Positions 11,877 to 25,762 of a stretch of 64,000 nucleotides of DNA are shown here, one piece after another. How positions within the stretch are numbered: the first letter of the stretch is position 1; each line of letters starts with the position of its first letter. Source of the DNA: Dactylosporangium sp. AC04546 (GTDB lineage Bacteria; Actinomycetota; Actinomycetes; Mycobacteriales; Micromonosporaceae); assembly GCF_022095675.1 (NCBI RefSeq), contig NZ_JAHYSG010000059.1, positions 1 through 64,000 on the forward strand. Reading direction: 5' to 3'. The translations under genes and the position numbers were made by a program. The notes under the pieces were generated by a model. The model was not told the DNA's origin and searched no databases. It was given only the letters and a program-made list of their open reading frames with translations.

Positions 11877-14705
11877 TTACTCGCCGCCGCGGGTGCCGCC
11901 GGGGTCGTAACTGATCCGGTTGAAGACCTTGATCGTGGTCACCGCCAGTGGGCAGATGGCGGTCGGGCCGGGCGCCGGCGACTCGATCTCGCTCGGCTGC
12001 GGCTCGGCCGGCTGGCTCGCGGGCTGGCTGACCGGCGCCTTCGCGGTCGGCTTGCCGGTGGCGGCGGGCGGCGACGCGTTCACCGTCGGCCGGGTGCCCT
12101 TGACGTCGCAGACGGCGGCGCGGACCCACAGGTCCAGCACGTACTCGTCGCGCTGCCAGCAGGTCTCGATGCCGTCCACGCCCTCGGCCTGGCAGTCCGG
12201 GATGTCCCACTCGACCCAGCCCGCGTCGCGGAGCTTGCCGACGAACGCCCGGTTGGTCTCCTCGGGGCCGCGGGCGGACTCCCAGGTACGTTGCCGGGAT
12301 CGGCATTCACCGATGCACCACCGGCTGCCGAGCGCGCCGTCGGTCGGGTTGCGGGCCGCCCACTCCGGCAGGTTCAGCTGGTCGAGCTCCACGAACACCG
12401 GGTCGCGGGTGAATTCTCGGATGATGAAGAACGCGGCCGGGGCGCTGACCACCGCCAGGACCAAGAAGATGATCGTGGCCATACGCAGCTGGCGTACCCG
12501 CTTGGCCTGGGCGCGCTGCAGCAGCCCGAACGGCGCGATCTGCGTCGTGGATTCCCAGTCGAAGGCGCCCGGGGTCGTCGCTGTGCCCCGGTAGGTGACC
12601 GGGTTCGGGTCGAAGCGGGCCAGGTCGACGAACGGCTTCGGCGGGGCCTCTCCGGGATGACCGCTCGGCCCCCCAGGGCCGCCGGGTCCGCCCGGGTGGC
12701 GGCCGCCGGGGCCGGGTCGGCCGGGGCCGGGCACGGTGGCGCGGCCGGGGGCGCCCCGGCCGCCGGGCGGGCCGCCCTGCGGGCCCGGCTGGCCCGGGGA
12801 GCGCGGGCCGCCGTGGGCGCCCGGGTGCTGGTCGCCCTGCGGCCCACGCTGCGAACCGGCACCGCGGTCCGAGCCGGCGCCATGTTGTGGACCGGCACCG
12901 CGCTGGGGGCCGGCGCCGTGCTGCGGGTCGCCGCCACGGTCCTGGCCGCTACCGCGCTGGGGGCCGGCGCCGTGCTGCGGGTCGCTCCCAGGGCCCTGGC
13001 CGGGAGCGCCGGGGCGGAGGCCGCCCGGGACGGTCGCACGGCCGCTGCCCTGGACGTCGCGGCGGCCGGCGGTGGGCTCGGCGGCGCCGTGGCGGCCCGC
13101 GGGCTCCGCGCGCCGGCCGGGACCGTCGCCGTCGGGAGCCCCGGGACGGCCGCTGGAGGGCGACTCCTGGCGCCAGGGCTCGGCGGCCCGGCGGCGCCCG
13201 GACGGCGACTCATCATCCGGGTTCGCGCGGCGGCGCCCGGACGGGGACTCATCGTCGGGGAGCGCCCGACGCCGGCCCGACGGCGACTCCTGCTCGGGCA
13301 GCGCACGACCACGGCCCGACGGGGGCTCATCGTCGGGTACGGCACGACGCCGGCCCGACGGCGACTCCTGCTCGGGCAGCGCACGACCACGGCCCGACGG
13401 GGGCTCATCGTCGGGTACGGCACGACGCCGGCCCGACGGCGACTCCTGCTCGGGCAGCGCACGACCACGGCCCGACGGGGGCTCATCGTCGGGTACGGCA
13501 CGACGACGGCCCGACGGCGACTCCTGCTCAGGGAGCGCACGACCACGGCCCGGTGGGGACTCCTGCTCGGGCACAGCACGACCACGGCCCGGTGGGGACT
13601 CGTCGGGAGCGGCGTGGCGACGGCCGGACGGCGACTCGCCGGCCTCGTCGGGAGCCGCATGGCGGCGCCCGGACGGCGACTCGAACGCCTCCTCCGCGCG
13701 GCGACGGCCCGACGGGGACTCAAAGGCCTCGTCCACCCGGCGGCGGCCACCGGACGGCGACTCGAACGCTTCCTCCGCACGGCGGCGGCCCGACGGCGAC
13801 TCGAACGCCTCTTCGGCGCGGCGGCGGCCGGACGGCGACTCGTACGACGGATCCCCGGCCGCGCGACGGCGGCCCGACGGCGACTCCTCCGGGCGCGGCG
13901 GCCACACCGGGACGGCCGGCGGCTCGGCGGACGGCGTGCGCTGGTCGGGCACGCTCGCCCGGCCCGGACCGGCGTCCGGGGCAGCCGGACGACCTCCGGA
14001 GGCCGCGGCACGCCCGGACAGTGCGTCGGAGATGCCCGTGCGGCCTGTCGGGCGGCCGGCGGGAGGCTCGGCCGCGTCCGGAGCGCCACCGCGCCGGCCC
14101 GGGGCAGGCTCCGACGCGGGAGGCGGCGGAGGGGCGGCCGGAGTACGCCAGGCCTGCGTCGGCTCGGGCGCCGCAGGAGCACGCCGCCCCTGGGACACAT
14201 CCGGCGGTGTGGGCGCGGCCGGGGCACGCCACGCCTGCGTCGGCTCGGGCGCCGCGGGAGCACGCCGGGCCTCGGCCGCGTCAGGCGCCGCCGGAGCCCG
14301 CCGCCCCTGAGGCAAGTCAGGCGCCGCCGGAGCTCGCCGACCCTGGGGCAAGTCAGGCGCCGCAGGCGCCCGCCGGCCCGGGGGCGCGTCAGGCGATCCG
14401 GGAGCCCGCCGGCCCGGGGGCGAGTCAGGCGACCCGGGAGTCCGCCGGCCCTGGGAGGCATCGGGGGCGGCGGGAGCGCGCCAGGCCTGCGTCGGCTCGG
14501 GCGCCCGCGGCTGCGGCGGCGGCGGGTTCACCTGATCGAGGACGTCGCGCTGGATCGGGGGCGGCCCGCCGTAGCTCAGGTCCGGGGCGTCGTCGCCGCG
14601 GGTGCCGCGCAGGTCCGCCAGCCAGCCCAGGTCCTCGTCGCTCGGGCCTTCTTCGGCCTTGCCGCGGCCGCGCCGCTTCTTGGCCTCGTCTCGACCCGAA
14701 GTCAC
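11877..14705 (-). CDS. Repeat-rich single-pass membrane protein with Cys-containing outer domain
   Basis: I do not recognise a function for this 942-residue protein. Residues 1-30 are charged; then come Pro/Ala/Arg repeats of the form [12 protein letters not shown]. From roughly residue 270 to 520 there are about nineteen copies of a 13-residue unit typified by [13 protein letters not shown] and [13 protein letters not shown], then a Gly/Pro/His-rich stretch. A single membrane helix lies near 742-765. A domain of about 110 residues follows with five cysteines, then a Pro/Ser tail with a sixth. The Arg-rich N-terminus suggests it is cytoplasmic and the Cys domain outside. It overlaps the rarA stop by 4 nt. 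The repeats are also near-perfect at DNA level. Confidence 0.8.
13240..13560. repeat. 78-bp tandem DNA repeat inside the 942-residue gene
   Basis: The segment CGGCCCGACGGCGACTCCTG recurs at 13273, 13351, 13429 and 13507, an exact 78-bp period, with nearly identical sequence between copies. Each 78-bp unit encodes two 13-residue protein repeats. The high nucleotide identity implies recent expansion or ongoing homogenisation by slippage or recombination. Confidence 0.9.
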
Positions 14706-21138: not shown

Positions 21139-21993
21139 GTGACCACCAACCGGGACCGCCAGCGTGCCGCGGCACGTGCGCGGCTGGAGCGGGAGATGGC
21201 CGATCGCGCCGAGAGGTCCCGGCACCGCCGGCGCAGGAACACGACGATCGCCGTGGGCGCGGGCAGCCTGGTGGTCCTGCTCGGCGCGGCGTGGCTTGTG
21301 TACGCGCTGACCGGCAACGACAAGAAGGCGACCGAGGCGGGCGCCAACCCCTCGGCGTCCGCCACCCCGGCCGCCTGCACCTGGCTGCCGCTCGTCGACC
21401 CGTCGGCGTCGCCCAAGCCGGAGATCCCGAAGGAGGTCAAGGACGTCGGCACCCCGCCCACGTCCGGCGAGCCCCGCACCGGCACCCAGCTGATGACGCT
21501 CGACACCTCGGTCGGCAAAATCAAGATCGAGATGGACACCGCGCACGCCCCCTGCGCCGCGGCGAGCTTCACCTACCTGGCGAGCAAGCAGTTCTTCGAC
21601 GGCTCGAAGTGCCACCGCCTGGTGACCTCGGGCATCTACGTGCTCCAGTGCGGCGACCCGTCCGCGACCGGCATGGGCGGTCCGACGTACCGCTACGCCG
21701 AGGAGAACCTGCCCACCGGCCGCCGCCCGGCGTACACCGAGGGCATGGTGGCGATCGCCAAGACGCAGGACCCGTCGTCGTCGGGCAGCCAGTTCTTCAT
21801 CGTGTACAAGGACATCGAGTCCCTCCAGGCCGACTACACGGTCCTGGGCAAGGTCACCGAGGGCCTGGACCTGGTGAAGAAGGTGGCCGAGGCCGGCGCG
21901 GTCCCGGACGCCAACTCGCAGAGCGAGGGCGACGGCGCCCCGAAGACCGAGGTCAAGATCAATACCATGACGATCAGCCCGGCGCAGGGCTGA
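21139..21993 (+). CDS. Membrane-anchored cyclophilin-type peptidyl-prolyl isomerase 2
   Basis: A 284-residue paralogue of the preceding gene with the same design: basic N-terminus, one membrane helix (about residues 32-51), Pro/Ser linker and outer cyclophilin domain. Conserved pieces are TSVGKIKIEMDTAHAPCA, the arginine in KCHRLVTSG, GSQFFIVYKDIE and YTVLGKVTEGLDLVKKV. The GTG start follows AAGGAG by 9 nt. Both likely fold secreted or surface proteins. The pair is probably one transcript ending at the hairpin at 22006-22045. Confidence 0.9.
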   Translation: MTTNRDRQRAAARARLEREMADRAERSRHRRRRNTTIAVGAGSLVVLLGAAWLVYALTGNDKKATEAGANPSASATPAACTWLPLVDPSASPKPEIPKEVKDVGTPPTSGEPRTGTQLMTLDTSVGKIKIEMDTAHAPCAAASFTYLASKQFFDGSKCHRLVTSGIYVLQCGDPSATGMGGPTYRYAEENLPTGRRPAYTEGMVAIAKTQDPSSSGSQFFIVYKDIESLQADYTVLGKVTEGLDLVKKVAEAGAVPDANSQSEGDGAPKTEVKINTMTISPAQG

Positions 21994-22045: not shown

Positions 22046-22078
22046 GCTGTTGGGTGGAACTTTCGCGGCGGGTTCACA

Positions 22079-22127
22079 GATCGATGGAGACTTCTGGCTG
22101 CCATGACGACCAGAAGGCGCCATCGAT
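22079..22127. repeat. REP-like interspersed palindrome, copy 2
   Basis: Arms GATCGATGG and CCATCGATC enclose inner arms CTTCTGG and CCAGAAG around a loop reading CTGCCATGACGA. The inner core TCTGGCTGYCATRRCRACCAGA-like arrangement matches the copy at 8150-8211, while the outer arms have diverged in a compensatory way. It sits immediately before the palindrome array. Confidence 0.75.
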
Positions 22128-22150
22128 CATGGCGGCGCCCGACCGAGCAC

Positions 22151-22796
22151 CCTCGGTCGACCGACCCACCGCTCTGGCGAGGTTTCGGTCGGTCGACCGA
22201 CCTACTGCGCGCACAAGGTTTCGGTCGGTTCGGTCAGTCGACCGACCGGCTTCGTGGGTTCGGTCAGTCGGCCGACCTACTGCGCTCGCAAGGTTCAGTC
22301 GGTCGACCGACCAACCGCGCACACAAGGTTCTCCGTGGGTTCGGTCAGTCGACCGACCGGGTTCATGGGTTCGGTCAGTCGACCGACCAACCGTGCACAC
22401 AAGGTTCTCCGTCGGTTCGGTCAGTCGACCGACCGCGATCGCGGGCTCGGTCAGTCGACCGACCAACCGTGCACACAAGGTTCTCCGTCGGTTCGGTCAG
22501 TCGACCGACCGCGATCGCGGGCTCGGTCAGTCGACCGACCAACCGTGCACACAAGGTTCTCCGTCGGTTCGGTCAGTCGACCGACCGCGATCGCGGGCTC
22601 GGTCAGTCGACCGACCGGCTTCATGGGTGCGGTCGATCGGTCGACCGACCTACTGCGCTCGCAAGGTTCAGTCGGTCGACCGACCAACCGCGCGCACAAG
22701 GTTCTCCGTCGGTTCGGTCAGTCGACCGACCGGGATCGTGGGTTCGGTCGGGCGACCGACCTACTCGGCTCGCTAGGTTTGGTCGGTCGACCGACC
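22151..22796. repeat. Array of 18 copies of a 16-bp palindrome (GGTCRGTCGACCGACC)
   Basis: Copies begin near 22151, 22187, 22232, 22262, 22297, 22343, 22373, 22419, 22449, 22495, 22525, 22571, 22601, 22635, 22670, 22716, 22746 and 22781. The consensus GGTCGGTCGACCGACC is a perfect palindrome; the commonest variant has one G-to-A change in the left half. Copy spacing alternates mostly 30 and 46 bp, giving a 76-bp higher-order unit that is repeated three times almost exactly at 22419-22616. Spacers are of three recurring types: 14 nt (often GCGATCGCGGGCTC), about 19 nt (starting TACTGCGC) and 30 nt (AACCGTGCACACAAGGTTCT plus ten more). Function unknown. Confidence 0.95.
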
Positions 22797-23164: not shown

Positions 23165-25681
23165 TCAGGCGCCGGACGTCACCCGGTACGCGTCGTAGAC
23201 GCCGTCGATGCGGCGCACCGCGGCCAGCAAGTGGTTGAGGTGCTTCGGGTCGGCCATCTCGAAGCTGAACCGGCTGATCGCCACCCGGTCGCGCGTGGTC
23301 GTCACCGTCGCCGAGAGGATGTTGACCTTCTCGTCGGACAGGACGCGGGTCACGTCGGCCAGCAGCTTGTGGCGGTCGAGGGCCTCCACCTGGATGGCGA
23401 CCAGGAATGTCGACGCGCTCGTCGGCTTCCAGCTCACTTCGAGGACGCGCTCCGGCTGCTCCTTCAGGTCGGCCGCGTTGGCGCAGTCGTCGCGGTGGAC
23501 GCTGACGCCGCCGGAGCGGGTCACGAAGCCGAAGACGGCGTCGCCCGGGACCGGGGTGCAGCAGCGGGCCAGCTTGATCCAGACGTCGTCGACGCCGAGG
23601 ACCTCGACGCCGGGGTCGGAGGCGCCGGTGCGGGTGCGGGCCGGGCGGGTCGGGATGGCGGTCTCGGCGATGTCCTCGACCGCGCCCTCCTCGCCGCCGT
23701 AGCCGGCGACCAGGCGCTGGACGACCGACTGGGCGGAGGCCTGGCCGTCGCCGACGGCCGCGTAGAGCGCCGCGACGTCGGCCAGGTGCAGCTCGCGGGC
23801 GATCGTCATGAGCGACTCGGAGGTCAGCAGGCGCTGCAGGGGCAGGCCCTGCTTGCGCATCGCCTTGACGATCGCCTCCTTGCCGGCCTCGATCGCCTCC
23901 TCGCGGCGCTCCTTGTTGAAGTACTGCCGGATCTTCGTGCGGGCCCGCGGGCTCTTGACGAAGCCCAGCCAGTCCTGGGTCGGGCCGGCGGTCTCCGACT
24001 TCGAGGTGAAGATCTCGATGACGTCGCCGTTGGACAGCGTGCTCTCGAGGGGCACGAGCTTGCCGTTGACCCGCGCGCCGATGCACTTGTGGCCGACCTC
24101 GGTGTGCACCGCGTAGGCGAAGTCGACCGGGGTCGAGCCGGTGGGCAGCGCGATCACGTCGCCCTTCGGCGTGAAGACGTACACCTCCTGGCTGGACAGG
24201 TCGAAGCGCAGCGCGTCGAGGAACTCGCTCGGGTCGCTCGCCTCGCGCTGCCAGTCGAGCAGCTGCCGCAGCCACGTCATCTCGTCGATGTGCGCCGGCG
24301 GGCCGGCGATCGTGGCGTTCTTCGTCTCCTTGTAGCGCCAGTGGGCGGCGATGCCGTACTCCGCGGTGCGGTGCATCGCGTAGGTGCGGATCTGCAGCTC
24401 GACCGGCTTGCCGGTGGGGCCGATGACCGTCGTGTGCAGCGACTGGTACATGTTGAACTTCGGCATGGCGATGTAGTCCTTGAACCGGCCCGGCACGGGC
24501 TGCCAGTTCGCGTGGATCACGCCGAGTGCCGCGTAGCAGTCGCGGACGGTGTCGACCAGGATGCGCACGCCGACCAGGTCGTAGATGTCGCCGAAGTCGC
24601 GGCCGCGGACGATCATCTTCTGGTAGACGGAGTAGAGGTGCTTCGGGCGGCCGGTCACCTCGGACTTGATCTTCGCCGCGCGCAGGTCGGTGGCGACCTT
24701 CTGGGTCACCGTGCGCAGCAGCGAGTCGCGCTGCGGGGTGTGCTCGGCGATCAGCCGGCTGATCTCGTCGAAGCGCTTGGGGAACAGCGTGCGGAACGCC
24801 AGGTCCTCGAGCTCCCACTTGATCGTGTTCATGCCCAGGCGGTGCGCGAGCGGGGCCAGGATCTCCAGCGTCTCCTTGGCCTTCTGCTCCTGCTTGGGGC
24901 GGGGCAGGAAGGTCAGGGTGCGCATGTTGTGCAGCCGGTCGGCGAGCTTGATGACCAGCACCCGCGGGTCCTTGGCCATGGCCACGACCATCTTGCGGAT
25001 CGTCTCGGCCTTCGCCGCGTCGCCCAGCTTGACCTTGTCGAGCTTGGTCACGCCGTCGACGAGCAGCGTGACCTCACCGCCGAAGTCGACCTGCATGCGC
25101 TCGATCGTGTACTCGGTGTCCTCGATGGTGTCGTGCAGCAGCGCGGCGACCAGCGTGGTGGTGTCCATCCCCAGGTCGGCGAGGATGGTGGCGACGGCGA
25201 GCGGGTGCGTGATGTAGGGGTCGCCGGACTTGCGGAACTGCCCCTTGTGGAAGTGCTCGGCCATGTCGTAGGCCCGCTGGAGCAGGCGCACGTCGGCCTT
25301 CGGGTGGCTCGCCTTGTGCTGCGCGATCAGGGGCTCGAGGACCTCGCTGACCTGCGGGCTCTGCCAGGGCGCGTTGAACCGGGCCAGCCGGGCGCGGACC
25401 CGCCGGCCGGTCGGCGCGGCGCCGACCAGGCCCAGGGCGGCGCCGGTCATGGTGCTGGCCTCGGTCAGGTCCTCGGTGTCCTCCCCCGGGTCGCTGGCCG
25501 GGCGGCGGTCAGTCGCCCGGCGCTGCGGCGTCTCGGACTGGGCGGGCGCCACGGGGAACTGCAGCACAACGCCACCCGCCTCGGCCGTCTCCGGCTCGGG
25601 GGTCGTGGGCGTGTCCTGCCGCGGTTCATCCTGCACGTGGTCGACCGTACCCTCCATGGGGGGTGCGATGTCGCCGGTCAC
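23165..25681 (-). CDS. rel: Bifunctional (p)ppGpp synthetase/hydrolase, RelA/SpoT family
   Basis: Rel makes and degrades the alarmone (p)ppGpp and mediates the stringent response. The 838-residue protein has a disordered N-terminus (to about 95), an HD hydrolase domain with intact HDTIED at 183-188, a synthetase domain with RVKSxxS-like context around [16 protein letters not shown], a TGS domain ([24 protein letters not shown]) and a C-terminal ACT domain. Both catalytic halves look intact. I chose the GTG at 25681 because GAGGAG lies 6 nt upstream; the frame is open 24 codons further. apt lies upstream in the same direction. Confidence 0.96.
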
Positions 25682-25762
25682 CGGCCGCTCCTCATCGCCG
25701 ACAACGTAGGAACGCCAATCGTACCCGGCCCCGCTGACATTTCCGCGCAACAAAAGTGCCGC

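Follow-up and report, generated by a model that had tools for sequence, protein, structure and literature searches.

Palindrome array in the window

The window, the whole 64,000-nucleotide stretch of DNA that was analysed, belongs to a draft genome of 13.0 Mb in 348 contigs (G000), which we compared with Dactylosporangium sucinum JCM 19831 (G005), with other members of the genus and with the family at large. The feature of interest is an array of palindromic sites between two convergent genes, laid out as follows:

21253..21993, + strand: gene for a cyclophilin-type peptidyl-prolyl isomerase, 3′ end toward the array (PF00160, 98.1 bits; start codon uncertain)
22151..22796, no strand: palindrome array of 18 operator-like sites, 20.1–29.3 bits each with an operator matrix built without this species
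16-bp cores of sites 1–9, starting at 22151, 22187, 22232, 22262, 22297, 22343, 22373, 22419, 22449
16-bp cores of sites 10–18, starting at 22495, 22525, 22571, 22601, 22635, 22670, 22716, 22746, 22781
22184..22201, − strand: best 18-bp operator match of the array, 29.3 bits, overlying a perfect 16-bp palindrome
22343..22418, no strand: 76-bp higher-order unit 1 (two operators, 30 + 46 bp), 71/76 identical to unit 2
22419..22494, no strand: 76-bp higher-order unit 2, 76/76 identical to unit 3
22495..22570, no strand: 76-bp higher-order unit 3; the stretch downstream of it matches at only 54/76
23165..25753, − strand: gene for a RelA/SpoT-type (p)ppGpp synthetase/hydrolase, 3′ end toward the array (PF04607, PF13328, TGS and ACT in a scan of 23165-25681)

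The 18 copies that the original prediction placed between the cyclophilin and rel genes, at 22151–22796, are present. At up to three mismatches, GGTCRGTCGACYGACC matches the window 27 times (4.68 expected; 10 in the richest shuffle), and 26 of these matches, overlapping registers counted, fall inside the array. The consensus had been taken for a perfect 16-bp palindrome. Palindromic it is, but only 2 of the 18 sites are perfect, the commonest form being GGTCAGTCGACCGACC (10 of 18), and the conserved unit is longer, at about 20–22 bp. Similarly, the GTCGAC centre attributed to each site is found in 16 and missing from two. The proposed alternation of 30 and 46 bp holds for part of the array, in which spacings of 34, 35, 36 and 45 bp also occur (in order 36, 45, 30, 35, 46, 30, 46, 30, 46, 30, 46, 30, 34, 35, 46, 30 and 35 bp). 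The three near-identical 76-bp units were recovered as described.

Directly 5′ of the array, at 22079–22133, is a stable hairpin (GATCGATGG...CCATCGATC; z −3.16 for 22070–22150). Hairpin-like stretches were also noticed by eye at L161 in D. sucinum and at L180 in the window's genome, 5′ of the TetR gene discussed below. A rough count of the hairpin motif per 400-kb sample gave 7 in the window's genome, 8 in D. sucinum and 7 in G002, with 1, 3 and 0 pairs, respectively; a dispersed family of such hairpins is only hinted at. Elsewhere in the window, at 13235–14488, Tandem Repeats Finder reported long 36-, 39- and 78-bp tandem repeats of another sequence.

Distribution of the palindrome

The palindrome is not unique to the window locus. 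GGTCRGTCGACCGACC has 160 exact copies in the window's genome (95 perfect palindromes and 65 copies of the A form), whereas the reversed pattern, used as a control, has none. At up to two mismatches from the palindrome there are 369 sites in the window's genome, 48 in D. sucinum and 14–25 in five other genus members, the reversed control giving 7–16 over the seven genomes. Among 354 genomes of the Micromonosporaceae the exact palindrome occurs in six and is multi-copy in two, the window's genome (95) and D. sucinum (19); a shorter palindrome, TTCGGTCGACCGAA, is found in five of the 354, with at most 2 copies. A two-copy pattern searched in one genome for each of 84,980 species, a set that possibly left out the window's genome, returned three stretches, all from D. 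sucinum. A general excess of palindromes was rejected as a cause, as perfect palindromes of at least 16 bp number 30 per 400 kb in the window's genome and 40 in G002 (the figure of 72 for D. sucinum is inflated by runs of N). Viral contigs and plasmids searched for arrays gave no match. The 41 Rfam matches at E≤1, mostly to microRNA models and none at gathering score, were read as hairpin noise. Among the matches listed in a search of open-licence literature, titles and the starts of abstracts contained no description of such arrays.

In the window's genome the sites form at least 28 clusters of two or more. With genes called by our own codon-usage script, 24 of the 28 clusters are intergenic (8 between convergent, 6 between divergent and 10 between tandem genes) and four overlap coding regions; arrays L177 and L178 are counted neither here nor in the statistics on 26 arrays given below. 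These figures, together with the 160 exact copies and the empty reversed control, speak against a palindrome that occurs at random frequency in coding DNA. The seven largest contigs (C1–C7) held no exact copy among the matches listed. Two arrays lie near contig ends (C224 and C239); arrays may break the assembly, and true counts may therefore be higher.

Part of the window array (22330–22620) folds well as RNA (z −5.70), and the array lies between convergent genes, as would be expected if the sites served, at gene 3′ ends, as transcription terminators or as hairpins that stabilise mRNA. The 24 intergenic clusters, however, face 22 gene 5′ ends as well as 26 3′ ends, six of them lie between divergent genes, and compensated hairpin changes are not in excess (see below). 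Since the clusters show no orientation preference, a terminator role was rejected, and we regard any such function as extremely improbable. The suggestion that the array is a regulator platform for rel is likewise unsupported, because the array faces the 3′ ends of both genes and the clusters have no preferred orientation. Nor is a local role as an iteron-like replication or partition locus supported, because at least 28 such clusters are scattered across the genome.

Match to the putative operator of a TetR-family gene

A pair of near-palindromes lies 5′ of a TetR-family gene in G001 and G004. Orthologs of this gene were found in the window's genome (G000:C38:73173-73754), G001, G004, D. sucinum and G006, and none was found in G002 or G003 at E≤1e-20. 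Two operator-like sites precede the gene in all five of these genus genomes, 34 bp apart in four and 38 bp apart in G006, and in the window's genome and D. sucinum the two sites are part of an array. Across the family the ortholog is present in 26 of 354 genomes (E≤1e-25), and operator matches (at most two mismatches of a 14-mer) lie upstream of the gene in 26 of 26, compared with 1 of 182 control windows. The 48 operators of 24 genomes, without the window's genome and D. sucinum, read TTCGGTCGAYCGACCGAA and come in pairs 33–38 bp apart (the second site of G324 has 3 mismatches); a TAnnnT element seen by eye between the paired operators may be the −10 box. In G051 the single exact palindrome is found 90 bp away from the TetR match. 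Elsewhere in G001, at a distance from the TetR gene, is another pair of near-palindromes (C6:225918-225969; sites at 225918 and 225954, 36 bp apart, 2 mismatches each).

A matrix of the 48 operators gave 23 matches of at least 16 bits in the window, every one of them inside the array, and no match in three 400-kb samples (from the window's genome, D. sucinum and G002) that contained no array. The palindrome had been thought to suggest a dimeric DNA-binding protein. This idea is now strongly supported at the level of sequence, where the palindrome matches the conserved putative operator upstream of a TetR-family gene.

The encoded protein has a TetR_N domain and, in 21 sequences, an invariant SQIHYHF in the predicted helix-turn-helix. 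Its structure model (pLDDT 82.5; top Foldseek match the EilR–DNA complex, TM 0.74) resembles a TetR-like regulator. In an alignment and tree covering 21 of the 26 TetR loci, the proteins of the window's genome and D. sucinum group together with good support; the inner branch that bears this pair is the longest (0.57) and sets it off from the remaining Dactylosporangium proteins, and the genus is not one clade. Such a branch is compatible with either acquisition from another genus or rapid divergence alongside the new sites. Dactylosporangium sp. NPDC005572 has a TetR protein 90% identical to that of D. sucinum (P0003). The divergent neighbour of the TetR gene matches the MddA model in G001; in the window's genome and D. 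sucinum it has, as called here, alpha/beta-hydrolase and glycosyltransferase-28 domains.

Both genomes with multiplied sites, the window's and that of D. sucinum, have the TetR gene. G001, G004 and G006 have a TetR of the same family, no exact copy of the palindrome and no expansion, and therefore the TetR gene alone does not cause expansion. Because these TetR-bearing genomes are also unexpanded, the TetR-less G002 and G003 provide no sharper contrast.

Constraint on the sites

We analysed the 247 sites in 26 arrays of three or more sites in the window's genome; L020 and L029, with two sites each, were left out. Conservation extends over a 20–22-bp palindrome, approximately TTCGGTCGGTCGACCGACCGAA; within the 22-bp form, two 18-bp operator-like sequences overlap, one on each strand. 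Spacers carry little information, and no neighbouring sites are less than 28 bp apart. Among 364 unit pairs of equal length, 108 have spacers of less than 60% identity, with a mean (0.367) close to the between-array baseline of 0.351, and in these 108 pairs the identity of the cores is 0.886 (88.6%). By this statistic, operator cores remain conserved even where the spacers no longer resemble one another, a sign of a persisting binding-like constraint, which would reflect binding of the arrays by the TetR protein. With the operator matrix 233 of the 247 sites reach 16 bits and 14 fall below, and substitutions sit where natural operators tolerate them (mean 23.98, as against 21.58 when placed at random, with none of 1000 placements as high). 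Some arrays carry centre changes (A>C, T>G) absent from the 48 operators. Both this tolerance and the decay of the spacers could in part be duplication history.

Compared with shuffles that ignore relatedness within arrays, mirror-paired changes are too few (7 versus 21.0, 1 of 5000 as low; 7 versus 15.6, p = 0.002, for distinct sites only), and there is no surplus of compensated variants (2 versus 7.43, p = 0.014 for so few; 2 versus 2.22, p = 0.61, for distinct sites). Because mirror-paired changes are rarer than in the shuffles and compensated variants are not in excess, the data, subject to that property of the shuffles, speak for recognition of half-sites rather than of an RNA stem.

Origin of new sites

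The recent expansion proposed for the window array is supported by its absence from the same place in all five readable relatives (the contig of a sixth ends there). In D. sucinum the cyclophilin–rel gap (L045) is occupied not by the array but by about 4 kb of extra genes. By eye, these encode an ABC transporter, a signal-peptidase-like protein and a small peptide rich in cysteine, and may form a peptide-export locus. In G002 the gap (L046) spans about 1.4 kb and contains another kind of local repeat, in which GGCCGAGCAGCAGGCC-like units appear by eye to be abundant. For four further arrays of the window's genome, the counterpart spacers of D. sucinum, 49–177 bp long, are array-free; array places are shared at none of the five loci compared (the window locus and these four). 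An acyl-CoA dehydrogenase gene does carry an array at one shared position in both genomes, the spacers being different; none is present there in G001 or G002. Growth of arrays is by tandem duplication, and multi-copy arrays in genes are gains of length.

In D. sucinum eight of nine assessed loci lie in an open frame with a continuous codon signature on both sides, the ninth being the TetR promoter. Five single copies were read, and all but L062, which had no clear ortholog, and the copy on C73 were compared with orthologs. These three sites differ from their orthologs by substitution, because the orthologs align without gaps in 11 of 12 comparisons (5 of 5 relatives at L061, 5 of 6 at L060 and 1 of 1 at L031); the sole exception is a 12-base gap in G006 at L060. 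The operator score is 29.3 bits at the D. sucinum sites and −14.3 to 17.5 bits in the relatives. Several relatives agree on the direction of change at L060 and L061; at L031, with a single relative, the direction is not fixed. Since only 3 of 328 family genomes without a TetR gene match hold one exact palindrome, five single copies in D. sucinum are far above background. Copies of Rickettsia-type palindromic elements in genes are insertions; such an origin for the in-frame copies of D. sucinum was dropped, their orthologs being of the same length.

Substitution in place at the in-gene single sites of D. sucinum, with codons changed to GGT and CGA, as seen by eye, in all three alignments, is also what a HIP1-like motif would show, one produced by a bias of DNA modification or repair such as methylation of GTCGAC. 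The window's genome, however, has about 12 exact copies per Mb as against the 1000–2000 per Mb given for HIPs in passages of PMC4390886, and the information spans 20–22 bp and matches a TetR operator, making this explanation highly unlikely.

Two loci on different contigs of the window's genome, L024 and L059, have one identical 16-bp spacer (among 2152 pairs), which shows that copying of array units from one locus to another can happen, at least on occasion. The shuffles leave room for some wider sharing: nine between-locus unit pairs scoring ≥0.4 are within the range of 8 column shuffles (0–10), and 50 pairs scoring ≥0.3 are above all 8 (16–34).

This exact spacer in unlinked loci is one point in favour of a selfish, REP/BIME-like palindrome, mobilised by a transposase into intergenic arrays, whose resemblance to a TetR operator would be a by-product of the founding sequence; the multi-copy, species-specific and mostly intergenic arrays (24 of 28 clusters) are another. 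Yet no match to Y1_Tnp (PF01797) was found in the window's genome or D. sucinum by a search that was positive in 5 of 14 control genomes. REPs, moreover, are reported in passages of PMC2817692 to keep their palindromes by complementary mutation, contrary to the deficit of mirror-paired changes and the lack of excess of compensated variants seen here, and the three D. sucinum single sites are not insertions. We rejected a REP/RAYT origin on the missing Y1_Tnp match and on palindromy not kept by paired changes, and consider a mobile selfish palindrome unlikely.

Discussion

Judged from sequence, the window array is probably a row of 18 tandem operators for one TetR repressor whose gene lies in another part of the genome, and the whole set is probably a genome-wide TetR-binding platform or sink. 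The ancestral state would be two operators about 35 bp apart just upstream of the repressor gene, an arrangement conserved in sequence through which the repressor probably controls itself and the divergent gene. In the lineage of the window's species and D. sucinum the repressor would have diverged strongly and the operator multiplied, new sites forming by substitution in place and by tandem duplication of operator plus spacer. The outcome would be arrays in intergenic DNA of any orientation and, in frame, inside some genes. Each array would most likely be loaded with many repressor dimers, and the whole set would act as a platform or sink for the repressor in the manner of SlmA. The 22-bp palindrome may even take a pair of dimers, as SlmA is reported to do on its sites in passages of PMC4726725. 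With several hundred sites, a platform of this kind might serve to organise DNA or to buffer the repressor; it might also be a by-product that carries no cost. A point against such a platform is that in-gene operators, if tightly bound, would be expected to hinder transcription, and no known nucleoid or division partner was identified.

A narrower account, which overlaps with the platform or sink, is that the arrays have no architectural role and only soak up repressor, setting a threshold at its own promoter. Such a decoy would suit a genome in which a single TetR gene is matched by 160 exact sites and by 369 at ≤2 mismatches. Titration by itself, however, would leave the in-gene sites and the growth at many separate places unaccounted for, and we find it doubtful as the full account. 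A binding platform or sink is favoured, with architecture and titration undivided by the present evidence. More speculatively, a single-target metabolic repressor may have turned into a genome-wide DNA-coating protein in one Dactylosporangium lineage, its operator being written in place, whether under selection or through some kind of sequence-specific drive, and spread by array growth; repressor and sites would then co-evolve in a RAYT/REP-like way with a transcription factor as the driver.

Repetitive palindrome arrays in bacteria are often attributed to transposases or left without explanation. Here the repeat can be traced to the putative operator of one identifiable transcription factor, with the two-site state in 24 genomes and the expanded state in two. 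It offers a natural case in which to study the possible conversion of a repressor into a nucleoid protein and the ways in which binding sites come to be dispersed over a genome, and it predicts one TetR protein on at least 28 site clusters.

SlmA, which acts in nucleoid occlusion in E. coli, belongs to the TetR family and has 24–52 SBSs scattered over the chromosome, according to passages of PMC4726725. The likeness is in a TetR-family protein with scattered palindromic chromosomal sites, binding being predicted in our case; the differences are several hundred sites, tandem arrays, a multi-copy state in two of the species searched and a match to an autoregulatory-type operator. Unlike for SlmA, there is no evidence that these arrays have a role in division or involve FtsZ. 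RefZ of Bacillus subtilis, also of the TetR family, has five nearly palindromic RBMs, whose positions are reported, in passages of PMC6657595, to be conserved across the genus Bacillus. It resembles the present system in combining a TetR-family protein with nearly palindromic chromosomal motifs, and differs in that array places are not conserved here, D. sucinum being without an array at five of five compared loci. The TetR protein P0001 matches the RefZ model weakly (27.3 bits against a cut-off of 180).

Autoregulated TetR repressors with a divergent target have in common with this system the TetR_N domain, two upstream operator-like sites and a divergent neighbour. Such repressors normally have few operators, whereas those described here are multiplied into at least 28 clusters. 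REP/BIME elements with RAYT are similar in their abundant, species-specific palindromes in arrays, and differ from a system with no Y1_Tnp gene, no upkeep by paired changes and an in-place origin of the single sites tested. With HIP1 of cyanobacteria the arrays share a palindrome that arises in place, also in coding DNA, but the palindrome described here is much longer, occurs much less often and matches the operator of a transcription factor. TetR-family proteins with scattered palindromes are already known; the passages on SlmA, RefZ, REP and HIP describe no natural operator arrays of this scale.
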